A stretch of DNA of 64,000 bases from Empedobacter tilapiae (GTDB taxonomy: Bacteria; Bacteroidota; Bacteroidia; Flavobacteriales; Weeksellaceae), in assembly GCF_004785645.1 (NCBI RefSeq), contig NZ_SRPE01000006.1:1-64000 (forward strand), given 5' to 3'. The notes beneath the pieces were generated by a model that was not told the origin of the DNA, did not search any database, and was given only the letters and a program-made list of their open reading frames with translations. A program made the position numbers and the translations under genes. The stretch's first letter is position 1. The number at the start of each line of letters is the position of its first letter. Positions 3,045 to 3,205 of the stretch are shown in pieces.

Positions 3045-3106
3045 AATAAAATTGTTTTGAATGTGAGTATGATTAATAAATAATAGGGTAGGTTAGTTAG
3101 CTAAAA

Positions 3107-3205
3107 TTAGCAGCTGCACATTCGAATTTTACTATTGATACAATTATAGATGCTCTGAAGCAGGACGCCGTGTCCAAAAGAATGTTTTTTAGAATTGTAC
3201 TTCAT
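3107..3205 (-). CDS. Candidate Met/Cys leader peptide before metY
   Basis: This is a 32-codon ORF reading leftward, with an ATG start behind an A-rich stretch and a TAA stop 62 bases before metY. The middle reads HSFGHGVLLQSIYNC and the peptide ends RMCSC, so four of its last five codons are Arg-free sulfur or linking codons (ATG TGC AGC TGC). The segment coding GVLLQS uses GC-rich codons (GGC GTC CTG CTT CAG AGC) that are atypical of neighbouring genes, which favour A/T third positions. Small stems can be drawn there (GGAC-N5-GTCC and TGCT-N4-AGCA). Placement and ending fit a cis-acting leader whose ribosomes pause when Met or Cys is scarce. That role is inference; a conserved structured RNA that merely contains an ORF is the alternative. 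Confidence 0.6.
   Translation of the reverse strand: MKYNSKKHSFGHGVLLQSIYNCINSKIRMCSC

Follow-up and report, generated by a model that had tools for sequence, protein, structure and literature searches.

The window analysed here, a stretch of 64,000 nucleotides from Empedobacter tilapiae, contains on its minus strand a methionine operon in which a short leader ORF is followed by metY and then metX, with the end of atpC lying upstream. The metY gene (1737..3044, minus strand) belongs to the O-acetylhomoserine aminocarboxypropyltransferase family (TIGR01326, 671 bits, above the cut-off), and metX (703..1707, minus strand) is provisionally identified as homoserine O-acetyltransferase-like, its best match being TIGR01392 with 334 bits, below the cut-off of 500. 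The leader ORF (MKYNSKKHSFGHGVLLQSIYNCINSKIRMCSC, 32 codons; 3107..3205, minus strand) has its ATG at 3205 and a stop codon ending at 3107, which leaves a gap of 62 nt to the ATG of metY at 3044. Its last codons are ATG TGC AGC TGC TAA (3107..3121, minus strand; peptide end RMCSC). These coordinates confirm the initial annotation, which had placed a 32-codon ORF with this end 62 bases before metY (its span of 3045-3205 comprises the ORF plus the spacer). A short, putatively translated ORF directly before a biosynthetic operon is typical of leader peptides, as is the concentration of codons for the amino acids of the pathway at its end.

Upstream of the ORF, the palindrome TTTAGAAAATTATTCTAA (3264..3281, minus strand) recurs in near-identical form in nine upstream regions of the genus and is probably located at the promoter; as a regulon site it was rejected, as it gave 10 matches against 9 for a reversed control. 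A promoter of the form TAnnTTTG is described in PMC9723704, and small ORFs in long 5' UTRs in PMC7366714. Between the palindrome and the ORF lies a hairpin (AACUAC/GUAGUU; 3230..3246, minus strand), where both sides have changed in 2 of 6 pairs, and a terminator-like hairpin usable in both directions (3443-3470) separates atpC from the leader.

The Met/Cys end is rare in the window. Among its 377 ATG ORFs of 15-80 codons, the leader ORF alone has at least three Met/Cys within the last four residues, and it shares at least four Met/Cys within the last twelve residues with a single other ORF (30441-30551; thus 2/377), which lies antisense inside a gene. The twelve residues of the window leader include one Met and three Cys, which is modest compared with the longer Met/Cys runs of many relatives. 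The codons of the central GHGVLLQS segment had been described as GC-rich and capable of forming small stems, and both descriptions hold, as their GC content is 66.7%, whereas the window as a whole has 30.1% and the intergenic stretch 20.9%, and the region contributes to a GGAC/GUCC stem. Together with the pairing of UGAAGUA with UGCUUCA, this stem forms an element within the ORF (3156..3204, minus strand) indicated by alignment and folding. The accompanying proposal that peptide and RNA are both constrained stands for the peptide, where changes are mostly synonymous; for the RNA, constraint rests on comparison between genomes, since folding of the whole leader as a single sequence gives a stability that does not exceed that of shuffles (z 0.27).

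A metY orthologue is present in 9 of the 14 genomes of the genus, and eight of the nine carry the leader ORF without a SAM-I riboswitch; in the ninth (G010), SAM-I is followed by a different ORF (...TIRLCSCGKRMR). The eight leaders end in MCSC (four), MCYC (two), MCNR (G002) and MRCCF (G013). The seven alignable ORFs, from which the divergent G013 is excluded, have dN values of 0-0.08 and, between clades, dS values of 0.36-1.54, with mostly synonymous codon changes, and the alignment thus indicates strongly purifying selection on the ORF. The G013 peptide is different in its middle part, but its RNA retains the inner stem at the same place. As the DNA near the ORF end is almost invariant in the genus and the stems overlap the ORF, the latter might be a small protein with a function of its own, or might be conserved merely through conservation of the RNA. 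This is considered very improbable, since most of the codon substitutions are silent and numerous other genera carry the Met/Cys end before metY in peptides that are dissimilar elsewhere. Of 197 genomes of the family, 8 match the leader peptide itself at E below 0.001, all within the genus; weak matches outside the genus (E above 0.01) were not accepted as evidence of homology.

The last leader codons (3117..3135, minus strand) are predicted by folding and alignment to form the 5' arm of a helix whose 3' arm is the initiation region of metY, including part of its ATG (3043..3065, minus strand). In the modelled ensembles, all eight leader-bearing genomes of the genus show pairing between leader end and metY start. 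For seven of them, none of 60 shuffled versions of the leader end pairs as strongly; for G002, 12% of the shuffled versions do, and in G013 the pairing is made by partly different sequences. On the alignment, the two helices are paired in 97% and 89% of cells, and in the start-region helix both sides have changed in 1 of 18 pairs, most pairs never varying. When a footprint of 30 nt is placed in silico on the last codons, the unpaired fraction of the start region rises from 0.33-0.45 to 0.59-0.73. A footprint 21 nt upstream opens the region partly (0.54-0.66), and with footprints placed 42 and 63 nt further upstream the unpaired fraction stays at 0.29-0.39 in seven of the eight genomes; in G002, footprints elsewhere leave it at 0.49-0.59. 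In the models of these eight genomes, the RNA structure is thus dependent on ribosome position, and the metY start is predicted to be hidden by a pairing that a stalled ribosome would undo, this pairing exceeding shuffles in seven of the eight.

Given the predicted pairing between the leader end and the start of metY, ribosomes that stall on the leader would make metY accessible. With an ample supply of charged Met- and Cys-tRNA, translation would proceed past the ORF end, and the K-I-R-M-C codons would then base-pair with the metY initiation region and mask the start. When Met or Cys is short, the ribosome would wait at ATG TGC AGC TGC and cover the 5' arm, and the metY start would be exposed. 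This pairing, along with the finding of no terminator before metY, points to translational attenuation, and the ORF probably encodes a leader peptide sensing Met/Cys supply and controlling the translation of metY(-metX), with translation as the likely controlled step. What can be read from the sequences is the ORF with its position and Met/Cys end, the selection acting on it, its complementarity to the metY start and the kinship of this metY with metY genes preceded by SAM-I plus leader; from these we infer that it is translated, that ribosomes stall on it and that the response runs in the direction given above. The initial annotation had likewise suggested a leader that monitors Met and Cys supply through attenuation or stalling, which is the best reading of the locus and is supported by the comparison of sequences.

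No known RNA, SAM-I included, matches the window at the Rfam gathering level, and only chance-level matches appear at E up to 10; the SAM-I aptamer (RF00162) likewise gives no gathering-level match in the leaders of the window and of the seven other leader-only members of the genus. The window genome encodes three SAM-I riboswitches elsewhere (L105, L124 and G000:C3:129658-129757), one of which stands before a TonB-receptor-like gene and another before a homoserine-dehydrogenase-like gene; for the third, a divergent partner precedes metH in G005 and others.

A survey of the family found 39 metY orthologues (E below 1e-190), 30 of them outside the genus, and SAM-I precedes metY in 29 of these 30. 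One of the 29, G074, contains SAM-I together with an ORF ending in SSARMRC, and its leader is identical to that of L246 (Weeksella massiliensis). In the order-wide survey, where metY was found at E up to 1e-150 in 10 of 296 genomes, three further loci (L134, L136 and L137) combine a SAM-I-like leader with a Met/Cys-rich ORF; L134 and L136 have an Rfam SAM-I match, and the aptamer of L137 is among those detected in G232. The aptamers of these loci share a subtype sequence. The canonical SAM-I aptamers of the order were rejected as carriers of such leaders: 90 were chosen, the tandem locus of G232 not being among them, two were unplaceable as their loci are cut, and among the 88 read, one ORF has three Met/Cys within its last 16 residues and none has four.

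A scan of the named genomes with the subtype sequence returned at least 119 stretches, at least 80 of which are loci; all the matches listed are from Bacteroidota, and 78 of their loci are long enough to be read. Among the matches listed, 65 of these 78 loci have an ATG ORF of 15-80 codons starting 78-150 nt from the start of the pattern, and 39 of the 65 ORFs have at least four Met/Cys within the last 12 residues, against a mean of 0.06 and a maximum of 1 when the downstream DNA was shuffled (50 sets). Taken without any Met/Cys filter, the 65 ORFs among the matches listed contain 29.5% Cys in the last ten residues against 2.6% in the body, the values for Met being 9.4% and 2.5%. Under a looser rule, a leader is present at 52 of the 78 loci among the matches listed, and its occurrence varies with the gene (metY, 32/36; metX, 6/15; FETxAIR, 1/12; other or unrecognised, 13/15). 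Of the leaders among these matches, 48 have a recognisable TATAAA-like motif, and in 37 of the 48 the leader ATG follows the beginning of this motif at a distance of 14-18 nt; we read the motif as the 3' strand of the closing stem of the aptamer. The same SAM-I subtype is also located before a FETxAIR metB-like gene without a Met/Cys leader at 11 of 12 such loci among the matches listed (L232, L240, L242, L253 and others).

As the subtype scan was chosen by pattern, metY was also sampled across the class Bacteroidia, where it was found at E up to 1e-170 in 59 of 296 genomes; the window and G232 were left out, and 56 of the remaining 57 upstream regions were read (no start in L377). An ORF with at least four Met/Cys within the last 12 residues is present in 34 of the 56, against a mean of 0.375 and a maximum of 2 of 56 in shuffles, while five of the other regions (SAM-positive or -negative) have weak candidates only and 17 have none. 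The ORF and its Met/Cys end are thus conserved before met genes of relatives, within the genus (8/9) as well as across the class, which speaks for the reading given in the initial annotation. SAM-I is also present in 26 of the 34 leader-bearing regions (16 by the Rfam model, 10 by the motif rule only), and no SAM-I is found by Rfam in the other eight (L374, L381, L382, L388, L390, L391, L395 and L397), among which the flagged ORF of L374, L381, L391 and L395 lies more than 260 nt before metY. Most of the leaders of this kind found in these sequences therefore stand behind SAM-I, and the window genus is without it.

A hairpin followed by a T-run lies between ORF and metY at L381, L388, L395 and L399, the last of which has its Met/Cys run inside the ORF and stands outside the count of 34. 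These loci and the leaders without SAM-I show that the leader-only form also occurs outside the window genus, in some cases as a classic transcription attenuator. The window leader might itself act on transcription, where stalling would refold the RNA and thereby prevent a stop of RNA polymerase, or of Rho, ahead of metY, and G074 also contains such a hairpin with a U-run between its Met/Cys ORF and metY. In the window, however, no terminator-like site is found between leader and metY, the only ones within 3030-3500 being at 3443-3470, upstream, and control of transcription by this leader is regarded as unlikely; we infer control of translation instead.

The pairing of leader end with gene start on which translational attenuation is based is not a general device, as only 2 of 37 relatives with SAM-I and leader in tandem exceed shuffles and the pairing is absent in G010 and G074, so that its support is limited to the eight genomes of one genus. 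The spacer of 110-150 nt in the tandem relatives must therefore hold another platform. Partly conserved stems are present in the spacer between leader and metY of Mucilaginibacter and Pedobacter, and alternative pairings are suggested at the leader end of Mucilaginibacter. A hairpin shared by the leader ends of the tandem clades was considered and rejected, as it is present in Pedobacter and absent in Sphingobacterium.

The leader peptides differ among clades in which of their parts are kept. In Pedobacter (8 sequences) and Mucilaginibacter (10 sequences), the body varies and the Met/Cys end is kept, with some exchange of UGU and UGC for Cys, as predicted for a sensor of codon supply. The Sphingobacterium-type leaders (L231, L251, L281, L288, L292, L306 and L350) end in RMR, encoded by CGA ATG CGN stop, in 7/7 cases with CGA-ATG invariant; they have little Cys at the very end, and only R-M-R is retained. 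A pure sensor of codon supply does not explain this constancy. The peptide itself might instead arrest the ribosome as a nascent-chain sensor, in which Arg-Met close to the end would outweigh codon supply, as Arg-Met is constant in the eight leaders of the genus, in G010, in G074 and in 7/7 Sphingobacterium-type leaders, and much of the peptide is conserved in seven members of the genus. The bodies of the Pedobacter and Mucilaginibacter peptides nevertheless drift as their Cys/Met runs stay, as starvation sensing predicts, and the G013 peptide has a different middle part, which makes arrest by the peptide decidedly unlikely, and more so than control of transcription. The ends RMR (Sphingobacterium), KRMR (G010), SARMRC (G074) and IRMCSC (window) are consistent with common descent.

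In the tree of metY (57 rows, as 6 of 63 sought were not extracted; root at midpoint only), the eight leader-only sequences form one group (96/84), and their successive neighbours are G010 (92/70), G074 (97/80) and Sphingobacterium with G392 (100/99). The family's canonical SAM-only sequences cluster separately (100/100). G010 and G074, nearest to the leader-only group, carry SAM-I plus leader, and this kinship suggests a single loss of the riboswitch in the window genus. As the families of the organisms differ, this metY has probably been transferred. It is judged likely that many metY and some metX genes of Bacteroidota are preceded by a composite leader with two sensors, where a SAM-I subtype would read SAM and a peptide behind its closing stem would read tRNA charging through its Met/Cys-run end, and that in the window genus the riboswitch was lost and the peptide sensor redirected to the metY start, where it would serve as a translational switch. 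The locus is best explained as ribosome-mediated attenuation, a known mechanism, in a variant that is combined in series with SAM-I among the relatives and occurs by itself in the window genus.

Attenuators of the trp/his type, such as Bacteroid-trp (RF01692), which we take to be a Trp attenuator, resemble the window leader in having a short ORF that ends in cognate codons before a biosynthetic operon, and some relatives of the window leader also have a terminator after the ORF. The window leader differs in that Met and Cys codons occur together, no terminator is found and a helix is predicted between the leader end and the start of metY. In translational attenuation of the erm type, a stalled ribosome on the leader frees a hidden start region, as a ribosome stalled on the window leader would free the metY start, but the signal there is an antibiotic and here would be starvation for Met/Cys. 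The mgtA leader with its mgtL peptide combines an RNA sensor and a peptide sensor in one 5' leader, as proposed for the tandem relatives, with other signals and another RNA. The SAM-I riboswitch (RF00162) precedes leader ORF and metY in G010, G074 and many Bacteroidota, unlike in the window leader and those of the seven other leader-only genus members, where it is not found.

RF01692 appears as a row in a table of PMC2864571. The leader uORFC-8-2, located before cysS in Rhodobacterales, is a predicted sensor of Cys-tRNA with a terminator (PMC8632094); it shares with the window leader the Cys codons in a short ORF and differs in phylum, gene and terminator, and the portion of PMC8632094 that deals with it mentions neither Met codons nor a riboswitch. 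The metA gene of Sinorhizobium meliloti has a SAM-II riboswitch, an extra upstream AUG and a terminator (PMC9373788); it differs in riboswitch class and in that AUG2 is in frame with AUG1, and the relevant section of PMC9373788 describes no Met/Cys leader peptide. That such leaders are little described in this phylum holds in part, as strong clues for leader-peptide attenuation before amino-acid operons are reported from the transcriptome of Flavobacterium psychrophilum (PMC9723704). In the open-access papers searched, no description of a SAM-I riboswitch in tandem with a Met/Cys leader peptide was found.

Should these readings hold, bacteria of a large environmental, gut and host-associated group would regulate methionine synthesis through leader peptides that read Met and Cys together, often in series with a SAM riboswitch, so that one transcript carries two kinds of RNA-based sensing, one for the product and one for the building blocks, arranged one behind the other. 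The window genus would then exemplify riboswitch loss and rewiring from a separate expression platform to direct hiding of the gene start, and it would be possible to revise immediately how metY starts and leaders are annotated in Bacteroidota. The window genus, Sphingobacterium, Pedobacter and Mucilaginibacter provide natural variants, and both the translational switch and the two-sensor leader can be tested with reporters.

Two further arrangements were observed around related genes. In G392, which belongs to another family, the metY at L133, 80% identical to that of the window, has neither a SAM-I match nor a Met/Cys leader and adjoins 5S and 23S rRNA and tRNA genes. In other genera of the family, ORFs with runs of Met (e.g. 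MMMDMMM and MMMCMCM) precede metY paralogues of about 50% identity at L097, L098, L099, L100 and L102; a scan of L097, L098, L099 and L102 found no SAM-I, and in several cases two such ORFs stand in a row.
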